A stretch of 64,000 nt of DNA from Actinomycetospora chibensis. GTDB lineage: Bacteria; Actinomycetota; Actinomycetes; Mycobacteriales; Pseudonocardiaceae. The translations under genes were made by a program, and so were the position numbers. Shown in pieces: positions 14,224 through 30,382 of this stretch (the stretch's first letter is position 1; the number at the start of each line of letters is the position of its first letter). The notes under the pieces are model-generated. The model saw nothing but the letters and a program-made list of their open reading frames with translations. It was not told the origin of the DNA and searched no databases. The stretch lies in NCBI RefSeq assembly GCF_028737215.1, contig NZ_JAQZAM010000024.1:1-64000 (forward strand), read 5' to 3'.

Positions 14224-14302
14224 GACGGCTCCTCGGTGGTGGCGGTCGTGGAGAGCGTGCGGACGCGGCGCGGCCACCCGCCACGACCCCTCCCGGCATC
14301 CG

Positions 14303-14334
14303 GGAGATCGATGTCTCCACCGCACCGCGCGGTG
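14303..14334. promoter_or_regulatory. Inverted repeats in P450/Rieske divergent promoter
   Basis: GGAGA-N6-TCTCC at 14303-14318 and the perfect 12-bp palindrome CACCGCGCGGTG at 14323-14334 lie between the divergent oxygenase and P450 genes. They are candidate sites for a shared regulator, possibly the IclR protein encoded at 15624. Confidence 0.3.
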
Positions 14335-14347
14335 GTGTCATGACGCC

Positions 14348-15526
14348 GTGGTGGAGCTCGACGTGGACCCGTTCGCCCTCGGCGTGCTCGCCGACCCGCT
14401 GCCGGTCGACGCCGCGATCCGCGAGGCGGCGCCGTTCGTGTGGCTGCCGGCACACGGCGTGTGGGCCACCGGTCGGCACGAGGAGGTGGCGGCCGCGTTC
14501 CGCGACCCGGCGACGTGGTCGTCGGCCGCGGGCACCGGGCTCAACGACATCCGGCGCGGCGAGACGTGGCGGCCGCCGAGCGTCCTGCTCGACGCCGACC
14601 CGCCCGCCCACACCCGCGCCCGGCGCGTGATGAACCGCGTGCTGCAGCCGCGGGCCCTCGCCGGGCTGGCCGAGCGCTTCGCGGCCGCGGCCGAGCAGGT
14701 CGTCGGCGATGCCCTGGCCGAGGGCGAGGTCGACGCCGCGGTCGCCGTGGCCGAGCGGTTCCCGATGACGGTCCTGCCCGACGCGGTCGGCATGGCACCC
14801 GAGGGCCGCGAGTACCTGCTGCCCTATGCCGACCTCAACTTCCAGTCGATGGGTCCGCCGGGGGTGCTGCGGGACGAGGCCGAACGTCGCGGCGAGGGCG
14901 CCCGCGAGTACGTGGCCTGGCAGATGCGCCGCGAGGCCCTGGCCCCGGACGGGATCGGGGCGGCCATCCACGCCTACGTCGACTCCGGCGACATCACCGC
15001 CGACGAGGCCGCGCTGCTGGTGCGCTCCTTCCTCTCCGCCGGGATCGACACCACGATCCTGGCCTTCGCGTCGGTGATCCACGAGCTGGCGCGGCGGCCT
15101 GCGCAGTGGGCGGCCCTGCACGACGACCCCGGCCTCGCGCGGGCGGCGTTCGAGGAGGGGTTGCGGTTCCACACGCCCAGCCCGGTGATCGGCCGCACCG
15201 CCACCCGTGAGGTCCCGATCGAGAACGGTGTCGTCTCCCCCGACACCAAGGTCCTGCTCATGCTCGGCGCCGCCAACCGGGACCCGCGGCGCTGGGACGA
15301 CCCCGACTCGTTCGACCTCCACCGACGGGCCGCCGGCCACACCGCCTTCGGTGCCGGCGTGCACAACTGCGTCGGCCAGGTGATCGCGCGGATGGAGGCC
15401 GAGGCCCTGCTCGGGACCCTCGCCCGTCGGGTCGCGCGGCTCGAGCCGGCGGGCGGGTCCACACCGCGTCTGTCGAACTGGCTGCGCGGCTTCGCGTCGG
15501 TGCCGGTCCGATTCGTGCCGGCCTGA
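14348..15526 (+). CDS. Cytochrome P450
   Basis: Haem monooxygenase of 392 residues, soluble class I type. Motifs seen are the I-helix SFLSAGIDTT, the K-helix ExxR in EEGLRF, and the haem loop FGAGVHNCVGQ with the thiolate Cys. It starts at a GTG (14348 or 14351). Divergent from the VanA-like oxygenase and followed by an IclR regulator and transporter, so it belongs to an aromatic or terpenoid catabolic set. It resembles actinobacterial CYP199/aryl-acid demethylase-type proteins in size, but I do not assign a CYP family. Confidence 0.92.
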   Translation: MVELDVDPFALGVLADPLPVDAAIREAAPFVWLPAHGVWATGRHEEVAAAFRDPATWSSAAGTGLNDIRRGETWRPPSVLLDADPPAHTRARRVMNRVLQPRALAGLAERFAAAAEQVVGDALAEGEVDAAVAVAERFPMTVLPDAVGMAPEGREYLLPYADLNFQSMGPPGVLRDEAERRGEGAREYVAWQMRREALAPDGIGAAIHAYVDSGDITADEAALLVRSFLSAGIDTTILAFASVIHELARRPAQWAALHDDPGLARAAFEEGLRFHTPSPVIGRTATREVPIENGVVSPDTKVLLMLGAANRDPRRWDDPDSFDLHRRAAGHTAFGAGVHNCVGQVIARMEAEALLGTLARRVARLEPAGGSTPRLSNWLRGFASVPVRFVPA

Positions 15527-15539
15527 GCCGCATCCACCC

Positions 15540-15554
15540 TTCCGGCATACGGAA
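15540..15554. promoter_or_regulatory. IclR-type operator candidate
   Basis: TTCCG-GCATA-CGGAA is a 15-bp interrupted palindrome 70 bp before the IclR start and 14 bp after the P450 stop. Its length and TTCCG half-site suit IclR-family operators. Confidence 0.45.
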
Positions 15555-15623
15555 ACGTGTGTTGGGCCGATCACAGAGCGTCCCCCAGACTCCGACGCGC
15601 CCTCGAGCACACCCGGAGTTGAC

Positions 15624-16463
15624 ATGGACGTCACCGACCCGGCGCCGCCCGCCACCGCGCTGGCCCCCGCGAACCTGGCGGCCGCCCGGAGCGCGAGCAC
15701 CGGCCCCGTGGTCGCCCGCGCGCTCGGGCTCCTCGCCGCGTTCTCCGACGACCGCCCGACGATGACGCTCAGCGAGCTCGCCCGCCGCGCCGAGGTGCCC
15801 CTGTCCACCGCGCACCGGCTCGTCGCGGAGCTCGAGGCCTGGGGCGCGGTCGAGCGCAACGGCGCCGGGCGCTACCAGATCGGTCTGCGGCTCTGGGAGG
15901 TCGGCGCGCTCGCGCCGCGCGGACCTGGGCTGCGCGAGCGCGCCCTGCCCTACCTCGAGGACCTCTGCCAGGTGACCCGCGAGAACGTCCAGCTGGCGGT
16001 CCGCGAGGACGACGAGGTCGTCTACGTCGAACGGCTCGCCGGCACCCGCGCGGTCGGGGTGCTCACCCGGGTCGGCGGCCGGTTCGCGCTCACCGCGACC
16101 GGCGTGGGGCTGGTGCTGCTCGCGCACGCCCCGGCCGACGTCGTCGAGCGGGTGCTCGCCGGGCCGTTCCCGCGCCACACACCGTGGACGCTCTCCGACC
16201 CGACGCGTATCCGTGAGGCGCTCGCCGCGGTCCGCGAGCGCGGCTACGCCGTCAGCGACCGTCAGGTCACCGCGGACGCCGTCTCCGTCGCCGCACCGAT
16301 CCGGGACGCCTCCGGCGAGGTCGTCGCCGCCCTGTCGGTGGTCGCGCACCGGGGCACGCCGCCGGTGTCGGTGCTCGCACCGCTGGTGCGCACCAGCGCG
16401 AGCGGCGTCTCGCACGCCCTCGCCGCCCGACCGGGTCGCCGGCCCGTGCGCACGCCCGCCTGA
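15624..16463 (+). CDS. IclR-family transcriptional regulator
   Basis: 279 residues: an N-terminal winged helix (VARALGLLAAFSDDRPTMTLSELARRAEVPLSTAHRLVAELEAWGAVER), then the IclR effector domain (LEDLCQVTRENVQLAVREDDEVVYVERL...GVGLVLLAHAP...VSVAAPIRDASGEVVAALSVVA). Such proteins sense aromatic or small carboxylic acids. GGAG precedes the ATG. It sits between the P450 and an MHS transporter on the same strand and likely controls both. Confidence 0.92.
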   Translation: MDVTDPAPPATALAPANLAAARSASTGPVVARALGLLAAFSDDRPTMTLSELARRAEVPLSTAHRLVAELEAWGAVERNGAGRYQIGLRLWEVGALAPRGPGLRERALPYLEDLCQVTRENVQLAVREDDEVVYVERLAGTRAVGVLTRVGGRFALTATGVGLVLLAHAPADVVERVLAGPFPRHTPWTLSDPTRIREALAAVRERGYAVSDRQVTADAVSVAAPIRDASGEVVAALSVVAHRGTPPVSVLAPLVRTSASGVSHALAARPGRRPVRTPA

Positions 16464-16499
16464 TCCCCCGCCCGCTCCCGACGCCCGAGGAGGGCCCCC

Positions 16500-17816
16500 G
16501 TGACCACCACCCCGTCCGACGCCGCACCACCCTCGGGGCGCGAGGTCCGCAAGGTCGCCTTCGCGAGCCTCGTGGGCACGTCCATCGAGTGGTACGACTT
16601 CTACATCTACGGCCTCGCCGCCGTCACGGTCTTCGCGCCGCAGTTCTTCCCCAACGTCTCGTCGCTCACCGGCACGCTCGCGGCGTTCGCGACGTTCGCC
16701 GTCGGGTTCCTCGCCCGCCCCATCGGCGGCGTGATCTTCGGCCACCTCGGCGACCGCATCGGTCGCAAGGCCACGCTCGTCACGACGCTGGTGACGATGG
16801 GTGTGGCCACCACGCTCATCGGTGTCCTGCCCACCTACGCGACGATCGGCGCGCTCGCCCCGATCCTGCTCGTGGTGCTGCGCCTCGTGCAGGGCTTCGC
16901 GGTGGGCGGCGAGTGGGGCGGGGCGGTGCTCATCTCGGTGGAGCACGCGCCCGAGTCCAAGCGCGGCTTCTACGGCAGCTTCCCCCAGCTCGGGGTGCCG
17001 ATCGGCCTCATCGCCTCGAACGCGATGTTCCTCGTGCTGGCCGCCACGATGTCCACCGAGGCCTTCGGCTCCTGGGGCTGGCGCATCCCGTTCCTGCTCA
17101 GCGCGCTGCTCGTCGGCGTCGGGCTCTACGTGCGGCTGCGCATCGAGGAGAGCTCGGAGTTCGTCGCGGTCAAGAAGTCCGGGTCGATGGCCCTGCCGCT
17201 GGCGTCGGTGCTGCGCCACCACTTCCCGCAGGTGCTCTGCGGGATCGCGATGTTCACCGGGATCACCGGCATCGGCTACATGGCCGCCACGTACTCCATC
17301 CAGTACGGCACCAGCTCGCTCGGGCTGCCGCGGGCCGCGCTCATCGGCATCGTCCTGGTCGTCGCCGTGCTCGAGGTGCCGATCATCCTGTGGTTCTCGG
17401 CGGCGTCCGACCGGTGGGGGCACGGCCGCACGATCCTCTTCGGGGCCCTGGCCACCGCCGTCGTCGCCGCCGCGTTCCTGCCGCTGCTCGCGAGCGGGTC
17501 GTTGATCCTCATCGCCGTCGCGGTGGCCGGCGCGCGCTGGGCGTCCGCCCCGATGTGGGGACCGTCCGGGGCCCTGGCCGCGGAGTGCTACCCCGTCGCG
17601 ATCCGCTACAGCGGCGCCTCGGTCGGCTACCAGCTCGGGTCGATCGTCGGAGGCGCGCTCGCCCCGATCATCGTCACGCTGCTGCTGGCCTCGCCCCTGG
17701 GCATCGTCGGGGCGTCGGGCTACCTCGTGATCATCACCCTGCTGACCGGGGTCGGAGCGGTCGCCGCGTCCCGGCTGATCGCCCGCGCTCCCGCCGCCGA
17801 GAGGGCCGGCGTCTGA
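16500..17816 (+). CDS. MFS transporter, MHS family
   Basis: Proton symporter of 438 residues, about 12 helices, paralogous to those at 6533 and 19320. It has GTSIEWYDFYIYG, RPIGGVIFGHLGDRIGRKATL, VGGEWGGAVL and CYPVAIRYSGASVGYQ. GTG start behind GAGGAGG. It lies 36 bases after IclR in the same direction, so IclR-transporter co-transcription is likely. The neighbouring oxygenases suggest an aromatic acid as substrate (inference). Confidence 0.9.
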   Translation: MTTTPSDAAPPSGREVRKVAFASLVGTSIEWYDFYIYGLAAVTVFAPQFFPNVSSLTGTLAAFATFAVGFLARPIGGVIFGHLGDRIGRKATLVTTLVTMGVATTLIGVLPTYATIGALAPILLVVLRLVQGFAVGGEWGGAVLISVEHAPESKRGFYGSFPQLGVPIGLIASNAMFLVLAATMSTEAFGSWGWRIPFLLSALLVGVGLYVRLRIEESSEFVAVKKSGSMALPLASVLRHHFPQVLCGIAMFTGITGIGYMAATYSIQYGTSSLGLPRAALIGIVLVVAVLEVPIILWFSAASDRWGHGRTILFGALATAVVAAAFLPLLASGSLILIAVAVAGARWASAPMWGPSGALAAECYPVAIRYSGASVGYQLGSIVGGALAPIIVTLLLASPLGIVGASGYLVIITLLTGVGAVAASRLIARAPAAERAGV

Positions 17817-17817
17817 G

Positions 17818-18681
17818 CTACAGGCCGAGCATGCGCGTCGCGTTCTCCTTGAGGATCAGCGGCCGCACCTCGTCCTTGATCTCGAGCTTCGCGAAGTCGG
17901 ACTGCCACCGGTCGGGGGTGAGGACGGGGAAGTCGGAGCCGAACAGCACCTTGCGCTTCAGCAGCGAGTTGGCCGCCTTCACCAGCTGCGGGGGGAAGTA
18001 CTTCGGCGACCAGCCGGAGAGGTCGATGTAGACGTTGGGCTTGTGCGTGGCGATCGAGATGGCCTCGTCCTGCCACGGCACCGAGGGGTGCGCGAGCACG
18101 ATCGTCAGGTACGGGAAGTCGGCGGCGACGTCGTCGATCAGCATCGGGTCGGAGTAGCGCAGCTTGATGCCCCGCCCCCCGGGCAGGCCCGCGCCGATCC
18201 CGGTCTGCCCGGTGTGGAAGAGCGCGGGCACGCCGAGCTCCTGGATCGCGTCGTAGAGCGGGTAGAAGCGCACGTCGTTCGGCTCGAACGCCTGCAGGCT
18301 GGGGTGGAACTTGAAGCCGCGCACCCCGTGCTCGTCGACGAGGCGCCGGGCCCGGGCCACCGCGGCCTTGCCGGCGTGGGGGTCCACCGAGCCGAACGGG
18401 ATGAGCACGTCGGGGTGCTCGGCGGCCTGGTCGGCGATCTCCTCGCTGGACAGCGGCGGGTGCCCGGTGCCGGCGGGCGCGTCGACGGTGAACACGACCG
18501 CGGCGGTGCGCCGGGCGCGGTAGTGCTCGGCGATGTCGGCCACGGTCGGCGTGCGGTCCTGGTCGGCCCGGAAGTACTTCGCCGACGCGTCGAGCAGCTC
18601 CTGGTCGACGGAGAAGCAGCCGTGGCTGTCCTGCTCGACGTGGACGTGCACGTCGATGGCGTCCAGCTGGTCGAGGTCCAT
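17818..18681 (-). CDS. Amidohydrolase-family (TIM-barrel) metal-dependent hydrolase
   Basis: 287-residue Amidohydrolase_2 protein, a group that includes lactonases and non-oxidative decarboxylases of aromatic acids. The metal ligands are all visible: HVH in AIDVHVHVEQ, His in LFHTGQTG, His in VLAHPSVPW and Asp in LFGSDFPVL. Convergent with the MHS transporter, with one base between the stops. It probably processes the compound imported by a flanking transporter. Hydrolase versus decarboxylase cannot be told from sequence. Confidence 0.88.
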   Translation of the reverse strand: MDLDQLDAIDVHVHVEQDSHGCFSVDQELLDASAKYFRADQDRTPTVADIAEHYRARRTAAVVFTVDAPAGTGHPPLSSEEIADQAAEHPDVLIPFGSVDPHAGKAAVARARRLVDEHGVRGFKFHPSLQAFEPNDVRFYPLYDAIQELGVPALFHTGQTGIGAGLPGGRGIKLRYSDPMLIDDVAADFPYLTIVLAHPSVPWQDEAISIATHKPNVYIDLSGWSPKYFPPQLVKAANSLLKRKVLFGSDFPVLTPDRWQSDFAKLEIKDEVRPLILKENATRMLGL

Positions 18682-20819: not shown

Positions 20820-21662
20820 CTAGACGCCCGTGCGCACGGAATCGTGCCACGGGATCACGAGCTTCTTCACCGTCGTGACCGCGACGTAGAGCAGGGACCC
20901 GACCACGGCGAGCAGCACGATCACCGCGAACAGCCGCGGCGCGTCGAGGGCGTTGAGGCTCGACACGACGAGGTAGCCGAGGCCCTCGCTGCCGCCGAGG
21001 TACTCCCCCACGATCGCGCCGATCACCGAGAAGACGATGGCGACCTCGGCCCCGGCGAACACGTAGGGCAGCGTCGTCGGGAGCTCCATGTTGCGGAACG
21101 TCGCCCAGCGTCCGGCGCCGAGCCCGCGCATGACGTCCCGGTGACCGCTGTCGACCGAGCGCACGCCCAACATCACGTTGAGCATGATCGGGAAGAACGC
21201 GAGCAGGGCAGCCATGACGATCTTCGAGGTCGGCCCGAAGCCGAACCAGATGACGAAGATCGGCACGAAGGCGACCTTCGGCACGACCTGCAGGGCGACC
21301 AGCGCGGGCTGCACCGCCCGCTGCAGCCAGGCGACACGGCCGAGCACCGCCCCCACGGCCACCCCCACCAGCAGGGCGATGCCGAAACCGGCGATCACCT
21401 CCAGCAGCGTGACGCCGATGTGGCCCCAGATGTCGTCGCCCGCGAGCAGGTCGCCCAGCGCGCCCGCGACGGCGGCCGGCGAGGGGAGGATGAACTCCGA
21501 GACCCCGACGACGGAGACCGTGAACTGCCAGAAGCCGAGGAGGGCGAGCAGCATGATCGGCCCCGAGACCCAGGGCAGCCGCCGCATCCAGGGCGCCTCC
21601 GTCTCGGCCGTCGGCTCGGCTGCGGACACGGCGCCGTCGGTCCTGCTCTCGATGGTCGTCAC
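20820..21662 (-). CDS. ABC transporter permease, SsuC/TauC/NitT type
   Basis: Membrane subunit of an importer, 280 residues, about six helices. The EAA-type coupling loop reads MRGLGAGRWATFRNMELPTTLPYVFAG. A short cytoplasmic N-terminus (MTTIESRTDGAVSAAEPTAETEAP) precedes the first helix. It is last in the long leftward operon, 3 bases after the ATPase stop. With the lipoprotein and ATPase it makes a complete nitrate/sulfonate/taurine-class importer. Substrate is probably the compound catabolised by the upstream enzymes (inference). Confidence 0.92.
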   Translation of the reverse strand: MTTIESRTDGAVSAAEPTAETEAPWMRRLPWVSGPIMLLALLGFWQFTVSVVGVSEFILPSPAAVAGALGDLLAGDDIWGHIGVTLLEVIAGFGIALLVGVAVGAVLGRVAWLQRAVQPALVALQVVPKVAFVPIFVIWFGFGPTSKIVMAALLAFFPIMLNVMLGVRSVDSGHRDVMRGLGAGRWATFRNMELPTTLPYVFAGAEVAIVFSVIGAIVGEYLGGSEGLGYLVVSSLNALDAPRLFAVIVLLAVVGSLLYVAVTTVKKLVIPWHDSVRTGV

Positions 21663-21665
21663 GGC

Positions 21666-22511
21666 TCAGTCCTCCTGGTCCAGTTCGCGGCGCAACGCGA
21701 CGACGAGCTCGCCGAACCCGGCGGTCGCCTCGACCTCGGCGGCCCGGGGGCGGGGCAGGTCCACCGGGGTGATCGAACGGATGCGGCCGGGTCGCGGTGT
21801 CAGCAGCACGACGCGGTCCGCGAGGAACACGGCCTCCGAGATGGAGTGCGTCACGAACACCACGGTCGCCCCGGACACGGCGTGGATCTGTTGCAGCTCG
21901 AGGTTCATCCGGTCCCGGGTCATCGCGTCGAGCGCCCCGAACGGCTCGTCCATGAGCAGCACCGACGGGTCACAGGCCAGGGCCCGGGCGATCGCCGCGC
22001 GCTGGCGCATGCCGCCCGAGAGCTCGCGGGGATAGGAGTCCTCGAAGCCGGTGAGTCCGACCGTCGCGCACAACTCGATCGCGCGGGCCCTGCGGTCCCC
22101 GCGGGACACCCCGCGCAGCTTGAGCGGCAGGGCGACATTGTCGACGACGGTGAACCAGGGGAACAGGTTCGCCTCCTGGAAGACCAGGCCGAACTCGGCG
22201 AACACGGCGTCGTCGCGGCGTCCGCCCACCCACGCGGAGCGCCCGCCGGCCTCGACCGTGCCCCTGGTGGGGGCGAGCAGCCCCGAGAGCACCCGCAGCA
22301 GGGTCGTCTTCCCACAGCCCGAGCGCCCGACCAGGGAGACGAACTCCCCGGCGCCGATGTCGAGGTCGATGCCCGAGAGGGCGTGCACCTCCCCGCGGCG
22401 GGTCGGGTAGACCTTGTCGACGCCCGCGACGCGCAGGCCGACGGCGCGCCCCGGATCGGGGGGTGCCACCGGAGCGGGCTCCGACCGCCGGACCACGGTC
22501 TCCTGGGTCAT
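21666..22511 (-). CDS. ABC transporter ATP-binding protein, SsuB/TauB type
   Basis: 281-residue ATPase driving the importer. Walker A is GRSGCGKTT, the Q-loop lies in FQEANLF, the signature is ELSGGMRQR, Walker B is LLMDEPFGALD, and the H-loop His is in VFVTHS. The ATG at 22511 was chosen for its GGAG ribosome site; in-frame upstream starts would overlap the preceding gene. Belongs to the NitT/TauT ATPase subfamily. Confidence 0.95.
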   Translation of the reverse strand: MTQETVVRRSEPAPVAPPDPGRAVGLRVAGVDKVYPTRRGEVHALSGIDLDIGAGEFVSLVGRSGCGKTTLLRVLSGLLAPTRGTVEAGGRSAWVGGRRDDAVFAEFGLVFQEANLFPWFTVVDNVALPLKLRGVSRGDRRARAIELCATVGLTGFEDSYPRELSGGMRQRAAIARALACDPSVLLMDEPFGALDAMTRDRMNLELQQIHAVSGATVVFVTHSISEAVFLADRVVLLTPRPGRIRSITPVDLPRPRAAEVEATAGFGELVVALRRELDQED

Positions 22512-22549
22512 GGTTGCTCCTGTCCTCGCGGTGCTCATGGGGCCGGCCC

Positions 22550-23596
22550 TCAGGAGGTCCCGGCCGGCGGGATCCCCGTGTCCAGCCACTGCGCCGGGTC
22601 CAGGCCCGGGGGCAGCTGGCCGATGCCCGTGATCTCGTCGTAGGTCTGCCGCCAGCGCTGCGGGGAGATCCCTACCGGGGTCTCGCCCGCGGTGTAGGAG
22701 TCGACGTAGCCCGCGAGCGCCAGTCGTGCCGTCTCCGGGTCGCCCAGCGCCGGCACCCGGTACTTCGACGAGATCGCGGCCATCGTGGCCCGGAAACCGT
22801 TCGCCTCGTCGGCCGCGATGAACCGGACGGCGTCGTCGATGGCGGCCATGTAGCGCCGCAGCTTGTCGCGCTCCGCCGGGTCCTGCGCGGTCGCCCGCGA
22901 AGTGGCGTAGACCTGCGCGCCCGCCGTGATCGCGTCGTTGGGATCGAAGATCACGGCCTGAGGCCGGGTGCGCTGCAGCTGCACCGAGGTGTCCAGCGAG
23001 ACGATGTAGGCGTCGATGCGCCCGGCGGTCAGCAGGTCGAACACCCCGGGGGCGAGCCCGACGACCTGGCGGCGGACCTCGGCGGGCGGCACCCCCGCCG
23101 AGCCGGCGACGAGGTCGAGGGTGATGGAGCTGGTGCCGCCCTCCGACGGGGTGCCGACGAGCTTGCCGCGGAACTGCCCCGCCTGGGTGATCGGGTCGTC
23201 GGCCGCGGAGACCATGCGGATGGTGCCGCGGTGGATGACCTCGCCGAAGGCGACCAGCGGGGCGTTCCTGTTGCCGGCCGCGATCATCGTCTCGATGTCG
23301 CCGATGCGGGTCACCTCGGCCGATCCGGCGAGCACGGTCTGGATGGCGGGTGCCGAGCCCTGGGTGGTCTCGAAGGTCACGTCGAGTCCCCGCGCGGCGA
23401 AGAACCCCTGCGTGTCCGCGATCAGCTCCGCGGAGTAGGACAGCGACTCCAGCGGCAGGATGTTGAGGAACGTCATGCGCTGGCGGCCGTCGTCGGTGGT
23501 GTCGCCGCCGCCGCAGGCGGTGACCACCGCGCAGGCGGCGAGCACCACGGCGAGCAGCCGCAGCAGCCGTCCTCGTCGGACTCGGATGGGGGTCAT
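22550..23596 (-). CDS. ABC transporter substrate-binding lipoprotein, SsuA/NMT1-like
   Basis: Extracytoplasmic binding protein of 348 residues. The signal peptide ends in a lipobox (ACAVVTAC, Cys followed by GGGD). The mature part has the NMT1/SsuA-like fold signatures LNILPLESLSYSAELIADTQGFFAARGLDVTFE and the ligand-loop region GTPSEGGTSSITLD. The ATG overlaps the stop of the preceding amidohydrolase (ATGA). It sets importer specificity; the ligand is unknown, and the fold covers sulfonates, pyrimidine precursors and aromatic acids. Confidence 0.92.
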   Translation of the reverse strand: MTPIRVRRGRLLRLLAVVLAACAVVTACGGGDTTDDGRQRMTFLNILPLESLSYSAELIADTQGFFAARGLDVTFETTQGSAPAIQTVLAGSAEVTRIGDIETMIAAGNRNAPLVAFGEVIHRGTIRMVSAADDPITQAGQFRGKLVGTPSEGGTSSITLDLVAGSAGVPPAEVRRQVVGLAPGVFDLLTAGRIDAYIVSLDTSVQLQRTRPQAVIFDPNDAITAGAQVYATSRATAQDPAERDKLRRYMAAIDDAVRFIAADEANGFRATMAAISSKYRVPALGDPETARLALAGYVDSYTAGETPVGISPQRWRQTYDEITGIGQLPPGLDPAQWLDTGIPPAGTS

Positions 23597-24705
23597 CGGG
23601 GAGCCTCCTCGCGACGGTGCGGGGTCGTGGACGAGCGGGTCCGGGGCGGTCGGGCCGGCGAACCCCGGTCGAGCAGGAAGGTCCTCGCGGTCCCGCCGAG
23701 GACGGCGGCCCGGTCGGCCGGGCCGAGGGCGGCCAGCAGGCGCTCCGTGCCGTCGCCGTGGACGTGGGGGTGATCGCCCGCGTAGAGGACGAGCGAGGCC
23801 GGGTCGAGGATCTCGAGGGCCTCGACGAGCTCGTCGGGGTCGGCCGGCAGGTGGGCCGGGGTCGAGGTGAGGCGGACCTGCTCGCGCAGGTACTCCGAGG
23901 GCGGGCGGGTCACCCAGGGGACCTCGCGCCAGATGCCCTTCCACTCCTTGTCCAGGCGCCAGAGCAGCGGTGGCAGCCAGGAGAAGCCACACTCGGCGAC
24001 GACGACGCGCAGCGCCGGGAGCCGGCCCAGCACCCCCTCGACGACGAGGCTGGTCAGCTGCCCCTGCGCGATCTGCCCCTGGGCCAGGTAGTCCTGCAGG
24101 TAGGTGTGGGTGAACCCGGTGGTGGTCGCGGCGGAGCCGGCCCGGCCCCAGGCGTGCAGCCCGACGACGAGGTCGTGCTCGGCGATCGCCTCGAACACCG
24201 GCAGGAACCGTCGGTGCCCGTAGCGGTGGTCGTGCCCGCGTACGGGCAGCATGACCTGCACGAACCGGGGGTCGCCGGCCCGGCGATCGATCTCCTCGAC
24301 GGCGGCCTCCGGATCGCCGGACGGGACGGCGATGCTGCCGCGCAGCCGGGGGTCGTGGTCGAGGAACGTCGCGGTGACCCAGTCGTTGAGGGCCCGGCAC
24401 AGCGCCGCGTCGTAGTAGGGGTTGCGGCTGACGTCGAACGCGGAGGTCGCACTCAGGACCGCCACGTCGACGGGCGTCCCGCCGGGGGCGGGTGCGTCGA
24501 GCACCTGAGTACGCAGGGTCTCCACGTCCGCCGGCGCCGGGACCGTCGCGGCGCCCGGCGGGTAGGCGCCGGCCTGGGTCGGGTCCAGGCGCAGGGCGGC
24601 GCCCTCGACGTAGTCGCGCCAGTAGGCGGGCAGGTACGGGACGAGGTCGGCCAGGGACGCCGGGGCGACGTGGGTGTCGGCGTCGACCGCTCCCCCGGCG
24701 CTCAC
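23593..24705 (-). CDS. Amidohydrolase-family protein (operon copy 2)
   Basis: 370-residue TIM-barrel Amidohydrolase_2 protein. Metal-site landmarks are DADTHV near the N-terminus (the DxH form of the first motif), GLHAWGRAG, VVAECGFSWLPPLLWRLD, and the C-terminal AGDHPHVHGD with the catalytic Asp. Only moderately similar to its upstream neighbour, so the two are not a recent duplication. The GTG start overlaps the neighbour's stop. The C-terminal 30 residues are Arg/Pro-rich. Possibly a decarboxylase or ring-opening hydrolase (family inference). Confidence 0.85.
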   Translation of the reverse strand: MSAGGAVDADTHVAPASLADLVPYLPAYWRDYVEGAALRLDPTQAGAYPPGAATVPAPADVETLRTQVLDAPAPGGTPVDVAVLSATSAFDVSRNPYYDAALCRALNDWVTATFLDHDPRLRGSIAVPSGDPEAAVEEIDRRAGDPRFVQVMLPVRGHDHRYGHRRFLPVFEAIAEHDLVVGLHAWGRAGSAATTTGFTHTYLQDYLAQGQIAQGQLTSLVVEGVLGRLPALRVVVAECGFSWLPPLLWRLDKEWKGIWREVPWVTRPPSEYLREQVRLTSTPAHLPADPDELVEALEILDPASLVLYAGDHPHVHGDGTERLLAALGPADRAAVLGGTARTFLLDRGSPARPPRTRSSTTPHRREEAPR

Positions 24706-25835
24706 GGGGTGTCCCCGGGCAGCTCGACGCCGTAGAGCGCGGCCGCGTTGCGGGCCATGATCGGGCGCCGGACGTCGGCGGGGAGCACCCGCAGGGCGGT
24801 CACCGGGTCGTCGAAGTCCCAGTGCGGGTAGTCCGAGGCGAACAGGATCCGGTCGGTGAGGCCTGCGTGGCGCAGCGTCGTCGCGAGGTGCGCGAGGTTC
24901 TCCGGCTCGTCGATCGGCTGGGTGGTGAACCAGCAGCGCTCGCGGACGATCTCCGACGGCGGGCGGTGCAGCGCCGGCACGTCGTCGCGGAACACGGACC
25001 ACCCCGCGTCGAGGCCCCACAGCAGCGACGGCAGCCAGGTGATCCCGCCCTCGACGAGCACCAGCCGCAGGTCCGGGAGCTCGTCGAACACCCCGCCGGC
25101 GACCAGCGAGGTCAGCGCCATGGCCATCGCGTTGCCGTACCAGCCGTGCTGCTCGAGGTAGAACGACGGCCAGCCGTCGCCGCGGTGACCCTCGGTCCCG
25201 CCGAGGTGCATCCCGATCGGCAGCCCGGCCGCGGCGGCCGCGGCGTAGATCGGCCGGTACTTGGCGTCGGCGACGGGAAGGTGCGTGCCGCTGGGGAAGA
25301 GCACCTGGACGAAGCGGGGGTCGCCGGACCGCCGCTCGATCTCGGCGACGGCGTGCTCGGGCGACTCGTGGGGGATGCAGATGCTGGCGCGCAGGCGGGG
25401 CTCGGGGTCGAGGAAGTCCGCGACCTGGATGTCGTTGAGCGCGCGACACAGGGCGGCGGCGTACGCGGGCTCCTCGGCGCCCCAGGTGTGCCCCTGCAAC
25501 GGGATCAGCACGCCGGCGACCAGGTCGTAGGGGTCGAGCAGCTGCTCGCGCAGCAGCCCCAGGTCGCTGCCGGGCGGGCCCGACGGCGGGTGGGCGTCGG
25601 CGCGCATGCCGCCGTTGCGCACCCGCGGGTAGATCGCGGGGGGCGGGGCCCCGCGCACCCCGAAGCGCTCGTAGCGCCGCCGCCAGGGCGCGGGCAGCTC
25701 GACGGCCAGCCGCGCCGGGACCACCGCGGGATGGATGTCCGCGTCGACGACGGGGGTGCGGGGGCGGCGGCCCGCGGGTCGGGGCGTTCCACTGGTCGTC
25801 CGGGCGGCGGCTTCGGACGCGGAGACGGTGGTCAT
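24702..25835 (-). CDS. Amidohydrolase-family protein (operon copy 1)
   Basis: 377-residue Amidohydrolase_2 protein. Landmarks are VVDADIHP (DxH form), GMHLGGTEGHRGDGW, LVEGGITWLPSLLWGLDAGW and LFASDYPHWDFDDP with the catalytic Asp. The SDYPHWD and WLPSLLWxLD segments are typical of the ACMSD/orsellinate-decarboxylase-like branch. The stop overlaps the next gene and the ATG overlaps the Rieske ferredoxin stop. Two such enzymes in succession suggest consecutive steps or two heteromeric subunits. Confidence 0.87.
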   Translation of the reverse strand: MTTVSASEAAARTTSGTPRPAGRRPRTPVVDADIHPAVVPARLAVELPAPWRRRYERFGVRGAPPPAIYPRVRNGGMRADAHPPSGPPGSDLGLLREQLLDPYDLVAGVLIPLQGHTWGAEEPAYAAALCRALNDIQVADFLDPEPRLRASICIPHESPEHAVAEIERRSGDPRFVQVLFPSGTHLPVADAKYRPIYAAAAAAGLPIGMHLGGTEGHRGDGWPSFYLEQHGWYGNAMAMALTSLVAGGVFDELPDLRLVLVEGGITWLPSLLWGLDAGWSVFRDDVPALHRPPSEIVRERCWFTTQPIDEPENLAHLATTLRHAGLTDRILFASDYPHWDFDDPVTALRVLPADVRRPIMARNAAALYGVELPGDTP

Positions 25836-26287
25836 GCGGTCTCCTCCGGGTCGGTGGGGCGACGTGCGGCGGTGTCGACGACGACCACGCGGTCCTCGAC
25901 GGTCACCGCGTAGGTGTCGGCGACGTAGGGCCCGGCGACGCGCCCGGTGGCCGGGTCGACGGCGACGACCTCAGTGGCGTAGCTGCGCACCGGGGCCTCG
26001 CCGGGACCGAAGTAGGACCGGCCGGTGGTGACGTCGTACTCCCAGCCGTGCCAGGGACAGGCGACGAACACCCGGTCGGGGTCGAGCGCGACCTCGCCGG
26101 GCGCGCCGGCCACGGCGAGCGGCGCGGCGCGGCCCCGGCACAGCGGCCCGCCCTGGTGCGGGCAGTGGTCGGCGAGCGCGTGGTACTCGTCGCCCACCCG
26201 GAAGATCCCGATCGAGCGCCGGCCCACCTGCACCACCCGGTGCTCGCCCGGCGCGAGCTCGTCGGCGCCCATCACCGCGACCTTCAT
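25832..26287 (-). CDS. Rieske 2Fe-2S ferredoxin
   Basis: Small electron carrier of 151 residues. The cluster ligands are C-P-H in DHCPHQGGPL and CPWHGWEYD. Domain flanks are GEHRVVQVGRRSIGIFRVGDEYHALAD and VRSYATEVVAVD, as in NirD/dioxygenase ferredoxins, with an insertion of about 20 residues between the two ligand pairs. No Rieske oxygenase is in this operon, so its partner may be the FAD oxidoreductase at 28020 or an oxygenase elsewhere. ATGA overlap with the AcnX small subunit gene upstream. Confidence 0.88.
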   Translation of the reverse strand: MKVAVMGADELAPGEHRVVQVGRRSIGIFRVGDEYHALADHCPHQGGPLCRGRAAPLAVAGAPGEVALDPDRVFVACPWHGWEYDVTTGRSYFGPGEAPVRSYATEVVAVDPATGRVAGPYVADTYAVTVEDRVVVVDTAARRPTDPEETA

Positions 26288-26730
26288 CGCTCCCCCTCGC
26301 GCTCCAGGAGCTCGACGACCCCCGCGGTCGCGTCGAGCCGGACCCGGTCACCGGTGCGCAGCACGGCGACCGGGTCGTCGTCGAGGTCGGCGAGAGCAGG
26401 CACGCGGGTGACGACGGCGCCGAGGGCGGCCTTCGTCGTGGTGACCGCGAAGACCATCCCGATCGGCGCGGTCCCGAGCAGCCGCGTGGTCTGGAAGAAG
26501 CCCGACCAGCCGGAGGAACCCTTGGCGCCGGGGAAGACGAGGATCCGGCCGGTGAAGCAGACCCCGGCCAGCGGGTGACGCGCCTCGGTGATCGTCCCGG
26601 TGGCCGGGTCGATGCCGCCCCAGCCCGAGATCGTCTCCGGCGAGACGAGCACCTCGCCGGTGACCACGCCGGGCACGACGGCCCGGCCGCGCAGCACCAC
26701 CCGGGCCGGGGCCGGTCGCAGGCCCGTCAC
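26284..26730 (-). CDS. Aconitase X swivel-domain (small) subunit
   Basis: 148-residue DUF126 protein, the swivelling domain that partners aconitase X. Family marks are VVLRGRAVVPGVVTGEVLVSPETISGWGGIDPATGTI and GRILVFPGAKGSSGWSGFFQTTRL. The GTG start overlaps the stop of the large subunit. In the split type of AcnX the two chains form one Fe-S hydro-lyase active site; known members dehydrate mevalonate 5-phosphate (archaea) or cis-3-hydroxyproline (bacteria). Reaction here unknown. Confidence 0.9.
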   Translation of the reverse strand: MTGLRPAPARVVLRGRAVVPGVVTGEVLVSPETISGWGGIDPATGTITEARHPLAGVCFTGRILVFPGAKGSSGWSGFFQTTRLLGTAPIGMVFAVTTTKAALGAVVTRVPALADLDDDPVAVLRTGDRVRLDATAGVVELLEREGER

Positions 26731-28007
26731 GAGAGCTCTCCGCGCCAGCGGCCGGTGACCGCGGCGTCGACGCACTCGGCCGTGGTGCCGAACCAGGCCT
26801 GGATGCCGAGGATGGCGGGCAGGTAGTGCGCCTGCTTGGCCGAGTCGGTGGCGAACACCCGGGTGCCGACGGGCGCGGCGCGCGACATGGCCGGGCAGGA
26901 GTCGGTGAGCACCCGCCCGCCGGCGGCCTCGATGACGGCGGTGTGGCCGGAGCGCTCGGCGACCACCGCGAGCGCCCGCGGCGCCATGATCCAGAGCTGG
27001 GTGCCGTCGGCCAGGCGACGGCCGTCGAGGGCGCGGGCGACGTCGTGGATCTGCTCGAGCGACGCGTGCGGGCAGCCGAGCAGCACGAAGTCGACGTCGG
27101 TGTCGCTGCCCTGGTCGTTGAGCCGGTCGTAGGCGGCCCGCTTCTCGGCCTCGCCGAACACGACCGGCTCGGGCACCCGGCGCTCGCCGAACGCCGCGGC
27201 CACCGTCGGGGCCTCGGGGGTGACGCCGACGATATGGTACATCTCGACCCCGCCCGACGAGGCCGCGGCGGCGCCGAAGTGCTTGAGGTCGGTGAGATCG
27301 GGCAGCGCGTGGTCGCCGACGATCACCGGGCGGGCCTCCTGCACGACGTCGCCGACGGCGTAGCCGAGCAGCCCCCAGTCCCGGAACTCCGAGACCGGCG
27401 TGTCCACCCGCACCAGGTGCGTGCCGAGTCGGTGGGCGTCGTGGTGGTTGCCCCAGCACGGGATGCGCCCGGTGAGGCTCGCGGCGCCGGTGGAGGCGCC
27501 GCCCTCGCAGTTGGTGCGGGCCCCGAGCACGCTGTTGGCGTAGACGACGGCCGAGGACTCCATCCACGCGCAGTGCTCGCCGCGCACCGGGAGATTGCCC
27601 ACCTGGTACGGCGTGCAGGTCGCGAGCACCGACACCCCGCGGGCGCCGACGAAGGCCTCGCCATCGGTCTGGAGCTCCACGAACTCCGGCGGGTAGGGCA
27701 CCGTGCCCACCGAGTCCGGCCCGAAGCCCTGCTGCAGCTGACAGGTCGGCACGGCCATCGGCGGGATCGGCAGCGTCTCGTCCGCGTCGAGGTTGATGAT
27801 CGAGAACGCGCGGTCCCAGCCGCCCTCGGCGACCAGCCGTGCCTTGACCGGCGAGGGCTGGGTGGTGGTGCCGGCGACGTTGCGGACGGTGCAGAGACGC
27901 TCGGCGTCGAGGGCCTGCCCGTAGCGCACCAGGAGGTCCATCGCGGCCGCCACCGCGGGGCCCTCCGCGCCGTCGCGCATGCGCTGCTCGTCGTCGGTGA
28001 GGATCAT
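26727..28007 (-). CDS. Aconitase X catalytic (large) subunit
   Basis: 426-residue DUF521 protein, the Fe-S catalytic chain of aconitase X. It opens with LTDDEQRMRDGAEGPAVAAAMDLLVRYGQALDAERL, typical of the family. Cys-bearing loops follow: ARTNCEGGASTGAASLTGRIPCWG, LLGCPHASLEQI and LTDSCPAM. It starts 12 bases after the FAD oxidoreductase stop and overlaps the small-subunit gene. Catalyses a dehydration; candidates are a hydroxyproline-like amino acid or a hydroxy-acid intermediate. Reaction not determinable. Confidence 0.92.
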   Translation of the reverse strand: MILTDDEQRMRDGAEGPAVAAAMDLLVRYGQALDAERLCTVRNVAGTTTQPSPVKARLVAEGGWDRAFSIINLDADETLPIPPMAVPTCQLQQGFGPDSVGTVPYPPEFVELQTDGEAFVGARGVSVLATCTPYQVGNLPVRGEHCAWMESSAVVYANSVLGARTNCEGGASTGAASLTGRIPCWGNHHDAHRLGTHLVRVDTPVSEFRDWGLLGYAVGDVVQEARPVIVGDHALPDLTDLKHFGAAAASSGGVEMYHIVGVTPEAPTVAAAFGERRVPEPVVFGEAEKRAAYDRLNDQGSDTDVDFVLLGCPHASLEQIHDVARALDGRRLADGTQLWIMAPRALAVVAERSGHTAVIEAAGGRVLTDSCPAMSRAAPVGTRVFATDSAKQAHYLPAILGIQAWFGTTAECVDAAVTGRWRGELS

Positions 28008-28019
28008 CGCCAGGCCCGT

Positions 28020-29336
28020 TCAGTCATCGAGGTTCTCCCGGATGCGGTCGCCGAGCTCCGCGGCCCGGCCCGCGTGCACCGCGTGCACGCTGCCGTCGGA
28101 GCCCGCCATGTCGAGGGCGTGCGCGGCGGCGTGGCCCATCGCGGCGCAGGGCCCCATCACGCGCACGCTCGACAGCGCGGCCGCGTCGCCGTCCACGCAG
28201 CGACCGGCGACGAGCAGGTTCGCGACCCCGGGCGGCGCCATCGAGCGCAGCGGCACGTAGTGCAGGTGGTCGCCGCCGAAGGTCTCCCAGACATAGCCGT
28301 CCGGGGTGTCGTGCAGCTCGATGGGCCAGGCCGTGCGGGCGACGGCGTCCGGGAAGCGGGTCCCCGCCCGGACCTCGTCGACGGTGAGCTGGTGGACGGC
28401 CTGCACCCAGCGGGTCTGGCGGCGGCCGGGCAGCCCGTAGGAGCGCACGACGGCCTTGCCGAAGACCTCGGGGAACTCGGCCCGCAGGAACTCGACGACC
28501 CGGTCGGCCTGGGCCTTGCCCTCCAGCTGGGCCTCGGACGCGGCGATCGGGTCGAGGGGCGCCTCGATGTGGGTCATGTTCAGCACGGCGGTGCCGCGGC
28601 CGGGGAAGAAGAACGCGAGCCCGTCGTGGCGGCGCAGCCCGTACTCGGCGGCCTTCGCGCCGACCCGGGCGGAGAGGTCCGCGGGGTCGGGCGGCTCCGA
28701 CTCGTCGAGGTGCTCGACGACGAGCTGCTGGCTGCCGTAGATCTCCCGGTCGGGCAGGCGGCAGGGCAGCCCCGCCGCCCAGCACAGGGCGGCGTCGCCG
28801 CTCGCGTCGACGAAGCCGTGGGCGCGCACGTCGACGGGCCCGTAACGGGTGGCGAAGCGGGCGCCGACGACGCGGTCGCCCTCGCGATCGACCCCGGCGA
28901 GCGACGCCCCGGTGAGCACCTTGATCCCGTGCGCCCGGACGGTGTCCTCCACCCACCGGCCCAGGCGGACCTCGTCGTAGCCGACGGTCGTCGTGTGGCC
29001 GACGCGGTAGAACAGGTCCCCGCTCGCGCCGAGGTCGGCGAAGATGTCCTCGAGGAGCCCGTAGGTCAGCCGGCGGTGCTGCGGCGCGTTGCCGAAGACA
29101 CCGCAGAACAGGCCGATCAGCGAGTTCACCATCTGACCGCCGAGCACCGGCAGCGAGTCGACGAGGACGACCTCACGGCCGAGCTTCGCCGACTCCACCG
29201 CCGCCGACAGTCCGGCGATCCCGGCTCCGACGACACAGACGTCGGCACGCACCCGGTGATCGGCCGGATCGGCGGGATGGGCCGGCCCCTCTCGCACCAC
29301 TGTGCGGACCGGGAGGTCGGTGAGCGGGTGCGGCAT
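28020..29336 (-). CDS. FAD-dependent oxidoreductase
   Basis: 438-residue flavoprotein of the FAD_oxidored type. The dinucleotide loop is CVVGAGIAGLSAAVES near residue 35, then VVLVDSLPVLGGQMVNSLIGLFCG, and GFVDASGDAALCWAAGLP in the second FAD motif. The ATG at 29336 was preferred over one 45 bases upstream because residues before it are unconserved. It is the first enzyme of the operon, downstream of LysR. It may oxidise the imported substrate or generate the hydroxy-acid used by aconitase X (inference). Confidence 0.87.
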   Translation of the reverse strand: MPHPLTDLPVRTVVREGPAHPADPADHRVRADVCVVGAGIAGLSAAVESAKLGREVVLVDSLPVLGGQMVNSLIGLFCGVFGNAPQHRRLTYGLLEDIFADLGASGDLFYRVGHTTTVGYDEVRLGRWVEDTVRAHGIKVLTGASLAGVDREGDRVVGARFATRYGPVDVRAHGFVDASGDAALCWAAGLPCRLPDREIYGSQQLVVEHLDESEPPDPADLSARVGAKAAEYGLRRHDGLAFFFPGRGTAVLNMTHIEAPLDPIAASEAQLEGKAQADRVVEFLRAEFPEVFGKAVVRSYGLPGRRQTRWVQAVHQLTVDEVRAGTRFPDAVARTAWPIELHDTPDGYVWETFGGDHLHYVPLRSMAPPGVANLLVAGRCVDGDAAALSSVRVMGPCAAMGHAAAHALDMAGSDGSVHAVHAGRAAELGDRIRENLDD

Positions 29337-29384
29337 GTCACGCACGTTAAGCAGTGCTCTGGACCACACGGAAATAGACAACCG

Positions 29385-29396
29385 GCCTGCGCAGGC
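29385..29396. promoter_or_regulatory. Palindrome before FAD/AcnX operon
   Basis: GCCTGCGCAGGC is a perfect 12-bp palindrome about 50 bp before the FAD oxidoreductase ATG, in the short gap after lysR. It may be the LysR recall or activation site. Confidence 0.3.
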
Positions 29397-29428
29397 ATCA
29401 ACCGCGTCGATACCCGCAGGTCAGGGAC

Positions 29429-30382
29429 TCACAGCTCCGCCGACAGCTCCACGAGCAAGGACCGCAGCCAGCGGTGCGCAGGGTCGTTGTCGAGGTCGGC
29501 GTGCCACCAGAACCGCTCGCAGATCGTGCCCGCGCCGTCCTCGCCGTCGCCGCCGGGGCACTCGCGGACGACCAGCCCGAGGCCGGCGGCGACGTCGCGG
29601 GCGAGCCGTTCCTGCACCAGCGCGACCCGGTCGGTGCCGGCGACGAGGTGGGGTACGGCGAGGTAGCTCTCCACCCGCACGCGGGTGTCAGGTTCGACGC
29701 CGAGCCGGGTGAACTGGCGGGTGATGGGCGCCGCGGCGGAGAACCCACGCTCCGGGGCGAAGGGCACGACCCACGGCATCACGGCCAGCCGGGCCGGGGT
29801 CAGCTCCTGGTGCGCGGCGGGGTTCGCGGCGTCCAGCAGGAGCACCCAGCGGTCGGTGAAGAGGTCGACCGAGCGCAGGTCCGGGCGGTCGAAGCGCGCG
29901 GCGGGCGGCGCGATCATGCCGTCGATCAGCCTGATCGTCTCGCCGATGTCGGCGGAGAACGACTCGCGCACCAGCCGCAGGCGCAGCTCCACCCCGGGCG
30001 CGCGCCGGGCGAGCGCCGCGGACAGCGCGGTCCCGAGGACGGCGACGGTGTAGTCGGCGATGAGCAGGCTGAAGCCCCGGCGCGAGGCCCGGGGATCGAA
30101 GTGGTGCCCGGTCCCGAACAGGCGCTCCGCCGCCGCGCAGACCCCCTCGACCTGATCGGCGAGCTGGACCGCGAGCGGCGTGAGGACGTAGCCGCCCGCG
30201 TGCCGCGTGAGCAGCTCGTCGTCGAAGTGGCGACGGAGCCGGGACAGCGCGGCGCTGGCCGCCGGCTGGGAGACCCCGATGCGGGCGGCGGCCCGCGTGA
30301 CGTTCCGTTCGCGCAGCAGCTCCCGCAACGACACCAGCAGGTTGAGGTCGAGGTTGGCCAGGTGGGTCGACGGTGCCCGCAC
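29429..30382 (-). CDS. LysR-family transcriptional regulator
   Basis: 317 residues with a GTG start: winged HTH (LDLNLLVSLRELLRERNVTRAAARIGVSQPAASAALSRLRRHFDDELLTR), then a periplasmic-binding-like effector domain. It resembles the NodD/NahR-like branch (LDLNLLVxLxxLLxExxVTRAA). It is encoded upstream of and in the same direction as the FAD/AcnX operon, unlike the usual divergent layout, and probably controls it. Confidence 0.9.
   Translation of the reverse strand: MRAPSTHLANLDLNLLVSLRELLRERNVTRAAARIGVSQPAASAALSRLRRHFDDELLTRHAGGYVLTPLAVQLADQVEGVCAAAERLFGTGHHFDPRASRRGFSLLIADYTVAVLGTALSAALARRAPGVELRLRLVRESFSADIGETIRLIDGMIAPPAARFDRPDLRSVDLFTDRWVLLLDAANPAAHQELTPARLAVMPWVVPFAPERGFSAAAPITRQFTRLGVEPDTRVRVESYLAVPHLVAGTDRVALVQERLARDVAAGLGLVVRECPGGDGEDGAGTICERFWWHADLDNDPAHRWLRSLLVELSAEL

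Follow-up and report, generated by a model that had tools for sequence, protein, structure and literature searches.

The DNA analysed here, referred to as the window, is a stretch of 64,000 nucleotides from Actinomycetospora chibensis (contig NZ_JAQZAM010000024.1, positions 1 to 64,000). On its minus strand, from 30382 down to 20820, a gene for a LysR-family regulator is followed by nine genes, encoding a flavin adenine dinucleotide (FAD)-dependent enzyme, a split aconitase X (AcnX; subunits AcnL and AcnS), a small Rieske protein, two Amidohydro_2 proteins (H2 and H1) and an ATP-binding cassette (ABC) importer (Table 1). A preliminary description of this DNA had reported nine genes running in one direction behind LysR, many of them with ATGA/GTGA overlaps, and had regarded them as an uptake-and-degradation operon around the split AcnX. 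All ten genes were found at the reported positions, and of the eight junctions that connect the nine structural genes five overlap by 4 bp (ATGA/GTGA). The remaining junctions are gaps, i.e. 12 bp between the FAD enzyme and AcnL, 11 or 38 bp between binding protein and ATPase, depending on the choice of start codon, and 3 bp between ATPase and permease.

Table 1. Genes of the AcnX operon and their positions in the window
Product	Position	Strand	Family and remarks
LysR-family regulator	29429..30382	-	Pfam HTH_1 + LysR_substrate; first gene, before the nine
FAD-dependent oxidoreductase, FAD_oxidored	28020..29336	-	PF12831 E 2.7e-73
AcnX large subunit (AcnL), domains 1-3	26727..28007	-	PF04412 E 1.1e-110; alignments to PDB 7cnr/7cnp
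AcnX small subunit (AcnS), swivel domain 4	26284..26730	-	PF01989 E 6.4e-22; 7cnr_B/7cnp alignment
AibG-like small Rieske ferredoxin	25832..26287	-	PF00355 E 1.8e-15; CPH...CPWH
H2, AibH2-like predicted catalytic subunit, Amidohydro_2	24702..25835	-	PF04909; top PDB match 6m1w_B
H1, AibH1-like partner subunit, Amidohydro_2	23593..24705	-	PF04909; top PDB match 6m1w_A; GTG start within GTGA overlap
NMT1/SsuA-type substrate-binding protein	22550..23596	-	PF09084 E 5.3e-24
NitT/TauT-family ABC ATPase	21666..22538 (start 22538 or 22511)	-	PF00005 E 2e-33
NitT/TauT-family ABC permease	20820..21662	-	PF00528 E 4e-29

The G+C content at third codon positions is 0.93-0.98 in the seven genes that have an individually scored open reading frame; H1, the binding protein and the AcnX small subunit sit inside longer frames and have no value of their own. 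In the 6.18-Mb assembly that holds the window a search with the Pfam AcnX profile (E 0.001) returned the operon copy as the sole match, and this AcnX shares 98% identity with its counterpart in Actinomycetospora callitridis (locus L002). The operon is real and coherent, and it joins a known oxygenase class to a known dehydratase superfamily in a combination that we did not find described. The idea of an uptake-and-degradation operon built around AcnX is supported, although the two amidohydrolases and the Rieske protein are most likely to be read differently.

The amidohydrolase pair and the Rieske protein

The preliminary description took H1 and H2 for ACMSD-like amidohydrolases and the Rieske protein for a ferredoxin without an oxygenase. 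Among PDB entries, H2 matches AibH2 (6m1w_B) first, with E 2.5e-80 and 274 bits, and AibH1 at just 1.5e-40, and H1 matches AibH1 (6m1w_A) first, with E 2.4e-55, followed by AibH2 at 5.3e-39. Chain B of 6m1w was taken as AibH2 because of its length and ligand numbering and because it groups with 8fum and 8fun, two entries named as AibH1H2 structures in the papers on AibH1H2; the table of matches labels both 6m1w chains 'Amidohydrolase'. ACMSD is matched weakly by both proteins (E 1.9e-8 for H2 and 5e-4 for H1), and H2 matches 5-carboxyvanillate decarboxylase with E 2.3e-11. Moreover, the six ligands of the dinuclear site of AibH2, D25, H27, H211, E265, D337 and H340 (PMC7782822), are kept together with D342 in 19 of 19 H2 sequences, including that of the window. 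The window H1 retains the residues of the mononuclear site (D, H, H, E, D); of the 19 rows in the corresponding alignment, the one for L003 represents a cross-hit to H2, and there are scattered deviations in others.

AibH1H2 is the hydroxylase of the three-component α-aminoisobutyrate (Aib) monooxygenase, which obtains its electrons via the Rieske ferredoxin AibG and the flavin reductase AibF (PMC7782822); it requires manganese and carries a Mn/Fe site (PMC10401708). A small Rieske gene adjoining a PF04909 gene is the signature by which this oxygenase class was discovered (PMC10811679; PMC10401708, section 7), and in the window the Rieske gene, which encodes the CxH-xn-CxxH motif as CPH...CPWH, overlaps H2 by 4 bp. 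Judged from these sequence comparisons, H1 and H2 are most likely the subunits of an amidohydrolase-fold dinuclear oxygenase of the AibH1H2 type. As H1 and H2 match AibH1 and AibH2 and the H2 gene adjoins the Rieske gene, the Rieske protein is most likely their AibG-type electron donor, i.e. the oxygenase that seemed to be missing would be encoded next door. The earlier assignment of the twin proteins to ordinary ACMSD-like decarboxylases or hydrolases that act after AcnX would agree with their Pfam family and with the weak matches to ACMSD and carboxyvanillate decarboxylase, but the E-values of these matches fall short of those for AibH1H2 by tens of orders of magnitude. In view of this gap, of the complete set of dinuclear ligands and of the overlap between the Rieske gene and H2, we rejected this assignment as highly improbable. 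More generally, 'amidohydrolase' pairs beside a lone Rieske gene are a likely class of misannotation and are better read as oxygenases.

The arrangement resembles the aib cluster of Rhodococcus wratislaviensis (PMC7782822, PMC10401708), which contains paired H1/H2 proteins of PF04909 with the same ligand sets, an adjacent small Rieske gene, a LysR gene and a transporter. The aib cluster also encodes an FAD oxidoreductase of unknown function, AibN. In contrast to the aib cluster, the window operon has no AibF-type reductase, contains a split AcnX instead and an ABC importer in place of the amino acid permease, and the genes for serine hydroxymethyltransferase-like protein, alanine dehydrogenase and aldehyde dehydrogenase are absent among its ten proteins. 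Likewise, a Pfam comparison of the ten proteins with the gene list of PMC7782822 revealed none of the Aib-catabolism genes for methylserine oxidation or Amma decarboxylation. H1/H2 are also similar in fold and ligand set to SfbO (8sm6), the candidates 8sm7-8sm9 and PtmU3 (PMC10811679), with a Rieske neighbour as in the SfbO type. The bit scores of H2 nevertheless decrease from AibH2 (274) via 8sm7 (236) and 8sm6 (191) to PtmU3 (65), and the anion-binding arginines of SfbO are not kept in H2: in an alignment read by eye the two sulfate-binding arginines correspond to His and Tyr, and a sulfonate substrate is therefore not suggested.

AcnX, the FAD enzyme and the importer

Both AcnX subunits score above the Pfam cut-offs (PF04412 370.6 bits, PF01989 77.6 bits). 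The large subunit contains three Fe-S cysteines, C131, C312 and C371, and the small subunit the catalytic Ser72 within the motif K-G-S-S-G-W. For a residue check 91 AcnX pairs, whose rows are partly dependent and include two that are identical, were aligned to AtAcnX and TkAcnX, with the active-site residues taken from PMC8184944. The base Ser, the active-site Glu, Ser, Lys and Tyr and the three cysteines are kept in 91/91 pairs. The cysteines are of the archaeal type (C110, C283 and C342 of TkAcnX), again in all 91 pairs and in agreement with a profile alignment; in ApPMDh, according to PMC10040528, such a set of three holds a 4Fe-4S cluster.

Several residues that contact the substrate differ from those of both characterised enzymes. 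Gly replaces the amine-binding Thr of cis-3-hydroxyproline dehydratase in 91/91 pairs, and none of the 89 pairs that cover the position of the amine-binding Asp has an Asp there, Ala, Cys, Val or Thr being found instead; the profile alignment to AtAcnX may shift by one residue in this loop, and the window lacks an Asp in either register. The Trp that packs on the hydroxyproline ring is kept in 83 of the 91 pairs and is Phe in the other 8, and the position of C510 holds Ala or Ser throughout. At the positions of Leu27(S) and Val64(S), substrate residues of phosphomevalonate dehydratase, all 91 pairs have Trp/Phe and Gly, respectively. As the two amine-binding residues are absent while the ring-packing Trp is kept, we infer that the substrate may be a β-hydroxy acid without an amine, perhaps a cyclic one.

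The window AcnX resembles the archaeal phosphomevalonate dehydratase, AcnX type IIb (TkAcnX, PMC8184944; ApPMDh, PMC10040528), in its split subunits, its three cysteines and the catalytic Ser, Glu, Lys and Tyr. Unlike type IIb it has Leu27 exchanged for Trp and Val64 for Gly, and it is bacterial and encoded beside catabolic genes; a phosphomevalonate dehydratase was rejected on account of these two residues. With the cis-3-hydroxyproline dehydratase LhpI (PMC5144071) it shares the superfamily, the catalytic base and the ring-packing Trp35, but it consists of two polypeptides, C510 and S449 are replaced by Ala and Cys, and the amine-binding Thr72 and Asp203 are missing. An AcnX acting on cis-3-hydroxyproline would have the only bacterial AcnX function named in the literature we found, and an enolase-family protein at 40364-41467, 10-12 kb away, scores as the same activity (270 bits, cut-off 500). 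In the NCBIfam equivalog for hydroxyproline dehydratase the large subunit reaches 220.6 bits against a cut-off of 700 that was set for the fused protein. Given that no AcnX of the group that covers these positions has the amine-binding Thr or Asp, that the cysteine set is of the other type and that Pfam reveals neither a proline racemase nor a hydroxyproline dehydrogenase family among the ten operon proteins, the FAD protein belonging to PF12831, we also rejected this function, which we regard as having hardly any likelihood. Judged by its residues, AcnX lies outside its characterised roles, as the preliminary description had supposed; for the bacterial AcnX types IIc-f, PMC10040528 gave the functions as unknown in 2023.

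The AlphaFold2 model of the FAD enzyme (predicted local distance difference test score, pLDDT, 93) retrieved generic flavoprotein folds only. For the model of the binding protein (pLDDT 88) the best fold matches are ThiY-type 3ix1, 4nmy and Thi5, and SsuA folds were found too. Neither of the two fold searches pointed to a particular ligand.

Neighbourhoods and co-occurrence of AcnX and H2

Neighbourhoods were analysed by tblastn with a fixed panel. Of 391 AcnX loci confirmed in a set of one genome per species, the best 80 were covered; contig ends cut several loci (e.g. L009, L051, L063, L081 and L189), where absences are weak. The small subunit is present at all 80 loci, FAD_oxidored at 72 and an IlvD/EDD dehydratase (PF00920) at 56. 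Transporters comprise NitT ABC (21), TctC (15), two major facilitator superfamily (MFS) types (10 and 8), Liv ABC (7) and tripartite ATP-independent periplasmic (TRAP) systems (6). Based on these counts the FAD enzyme and AcnX form the recurrent unit, to which IlvD is usually added along with some importer of organic acids. The Rieske-H2-H1 module occurs at 7 loci (in L003 H1 is cut by the contig end), TauD at 6 and a VanA-type Rieske oxygenase at 3. We also considered the FAD enzyme as the ferredoxin reductase of the oxygenase, but discarded this role, as FAD_oxidored is present at 72/80 loci and the oxygenase at only 7.

Among the loci examined, the full gene order of the window recurs in L002, L004, L005, L126 (with IlvD added), L182 and L185, all from Actinomycetospora, Pseudonocardia or other genomes of the same family, and L003 ends at a contig edge inside the operon. 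Conservation beyond close relatives, to which the preliminary description had tied its proposal, is split: among the examined loci the complete order is confined to the window and these six loci of the family, whereas the pair of FAD enzyme and AcnX is widespread, and the oxygenase also stands beside AcnX in L012 and L023 and in the alphaproteobacterial L072, i.e. in separate groups with different gene arrangements. In the alphaproteobacterial loci L057, L058, L060 and L072 the FAD-AcnX core is accompanied by a TauD-type dioxygenase and by a transporter of the TAXI-TRAP type, and L072 has both TauD and the H1-H2-Rieske module. In genome G002 (L126) IlvD is inserted between the FAD enzyme and AcnX, and a VanA-type oxygenase and a reductase follow at the end, directly after the importer. 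The IlvD/EDD of G002 (L126, 7563-9260) is ~74% identical to IlvD of AcnX operons from Amycolatopsis and Pseudonocardia, which suggests that IlvD was lost in the lineage of the window or regained in G002. A mutual exclusion of IlvD and oxygenase (0/7 versus 56/73, Fisher 1e-4) was dropped as an explanation, as G002 has both and L183, L184 and L186 have neither. The AcnX loci of Microbacteriaceae (L026, L028, L042, L045-L047 and L050) encode a UGSC-family protein together with an unassigned partner protein of ~370 aa that has no Pfam match at 1e-8, and an AMP-binding ligase, several of them also MaoC and SDR genes.

Within the family, AcnX is present in 40/390 genomes, and its surroundings were examined in all 40, for some of them on a named copy of the contig in question. 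AcnX has the oxygenase as a neighbour in nine of the 40 (the window, G017/L002, G002/L126, G008/L004, G004/L182, G695/L003, G697/L005, G660/L185 and G750/L023). In the AcnX trees, the second of which was built by a quick method and omits L135 and the incomplete L190, the presence of the oxygenase changes at least three times when only well-supported branches are counted (window clade; L012 and L023; L072). Most simply these changes are gains; in genome G663 (L183), which lies inside the window clade, the oxygenase was likely lost once.

Among 397 genomes of the order, our own included, 11 have AcnX, 10 have H2 and 6 have both (Fisher p 1.8e-8, kinship ignored), and 6 of the 7 genomes with a close H2 (>400 bits) also have AcnX. 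Of the 6 genomes that encode AcnX as well as H2, 4 carry them at separate places. A further search for H2 covered 50 AcnX-bearing genomes drawn from the 80 loci, mostly isolates, including five with an adjacent oxygenase and leaving out L012 and L023. H2 was found in 16 of them, i.e., going by record titles, in 14/16 Pseudonocardiaceae and 2/34 others.

A proposed pathway and its alternatives

Taken together, we propose that the operon serves to import a small organic acid, to hydroxylate it with O2 and to break it down in FAD- and AcnX-dependent steps, a reading drawn from sequence to which we assign a probability of about one half. The NitT-type importer would bring in the acid, H1H2 would hydroxylate an unactivated C-H bond using O2 and electrons from the Rieske protein, and the resulting hydroxy acid would likely be passed to the FAD enzyme and AcnX for oxidation and dehydration. 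In such a route the FAD enzyme and AcnX may be regarded as the core and the oxygenase as a front end, because a hydroxylase introduces a hydroxyl group and a dehydratase eliminates one, and because the core is far more widespread; the front end would be optional, since many loci have the core alone and the oxygenase has joined it in several lineages. A more specific version is put forward as a doubtful conjecture: H1H2, as a Mn/Fe or diiron monooxygenase, would install the very β-hydroxyl group that AcnX, as a 4Fe-4S enzyme, then eliminates, and the net result would be the desaturation of an inert acid at the expense of O2.

Several observations weigh against the coupled pathway. The oxygenase is missing at 73/80 AcnX loci, 10/12 H2 places found in the genomes of the order lie away from AcnX, and 34/50 AcnX-bearing genomes tested encode no H2 (E 1e-60). 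The co-occurrence counts take no account of relatedness, and some changes on the tree may be losses. The window operon lacks IlvD/EDD, the best copy in the genome being 40% identical, and Pfam shows no Fer2 or flavin reductase of the AibF type among the ten operon proteins. Other oxygenases of this kind have a reductase beside them, and its nearest relatives in this genome are encoded outside the operon. One of these, at 41471-42406, which was considered as a partner of the oxygenase, is 57% identical to the reductase adjoining standalone AibH1H2-like oxygenases, but it belongs to another cluster with DAO-type and enolase-family genes. A further point is L183, a natural oxygenase-free variant in which LysR, the FAD gene, AcnL and AcnS are directly followed by an importer 69-84% identical to that of the window, with Rieske, H2 and H1 missing. 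As G663 lacks the oxygenase, importer and AcnX can work without it, and finding this locus made us lower our confidence in the coupled pathway from 0.6 to 0.5. Conversely, L116 has H2, H1 and a 73-88% identical importer and no AcnX. The importer, paired with the oxygenase in L116 and with AcnX in L183, hence does not tell which step is first. An assignment of importer and oxygenase to one unit, based on L116 and on L168, whose binding protein is 68% identical to that of the window, was dropped in view of L183 and of the binding proteins at the other oxygenase loci L012, L023, L119, L120 and L169-L171, which are just 35-42% identical.

These points can be accommodated if oxygenase and FAD-AcnX module belong to two separate pathways that share merely an operon, a regulator type, an importer and an ecological niche. 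Each module is indeed common alone, as the counts above and the operon of G663 illustrate, and LysR relatives, which precede many AcnX-FAD operons, also accompany standalone oxygenases. The 22 stretches around H2 that were chosen for lying away from AcnX, and lack it by choice, all contain H1, and 21 of them contain a Rieske gene. LysR relatives turn up in 10 of these stretches, related binding proteins and alpha/beta-hydrolases in 7 each and OFR-type reductases in 6, Pfam having been used to check one of the reductases and two of the hydrolases; for the H2 places of the 50-genome search 12 stretches were fetched, which do not comprise every place away from AcnX. Two separate pathways would, however, leave unexplained the interleaved single operon with its 4-bp overlap at the boundary of AcnS and Rieske, the joining of oxygenase and AcnX in three groups in differing arrangements, and their co-occurrence at genome level even where the loci lie apart, and we consider this explanation rather unlikely. 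Alternatively, the oxygenase may act by oxidative dealkylation, hydroxylating next to N or O and thereby freeing the acid for the FAD enzyme and AcnX, so that it would not be the source of the hydroxyl group removed by AcnX. VanA-type and TauD-type oxygenases are classes known for dealkylation, and other AcnX loci carry them (3/80 and 6/80, respectively), G002 even with VanA and its reductase after the importer. Dealkylation would also explain why the oxygenase is dispensable in G663, and SfbO, a relative of H1H2, N-dealkylates PIPES (PMC10811679). Yet AibH2, which of the PDB relatives resembles H2 most, simply hydroxylates a C-H bond, and His and Tyr occupy the positions of the sulfate-binding arginines of SfbO, which makes dealkylation a possible but not the expected mode of action.

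As the preliminary description had surmised, the pathway may be an undescribed one: in the open-licence literature we found no description of AcnX/DUF521 combined with an AibH2-type oxygenase. If true, the hydroxylate-then-dehydrate module would give this AcnX group its first role in a pathway, and no earlier case would be known of an AibH2-type oxygenase coupled to an Fe-S dehydratase. For the 555 AibH2-like proteins found in 2023, the neighbourhoods contained few co-occurring genes hinting at function (PMC10401708, section 7). The recurring link of AcnX and oxygenase gives each family a concrete partner, the product of one being a candidate precursor of the substrate of the other.

Beside the standalone H2-H1 pair of L118 (4606-13309) there are genes for an NDMA-type alcohol dehydrogenase (ADH), a second ADH-like protein, a fused PcaIJ-type CoA transferase and a P450 resembling pentalenolactone synthase. 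In the window itself, a further cluster at 12029-18681 encodes a VanA-type Rieske oxygenase (13012-14325, minus strand) with a Fer2 reductase (12029-13000, minus strand), an IclR regulator related to BhcR/PcaR (15624-16463, plus strand), an MFS carrier (16500-17816, plus strand) and a third, single Amidohydro_2 protein (17818-18681, minus strand).

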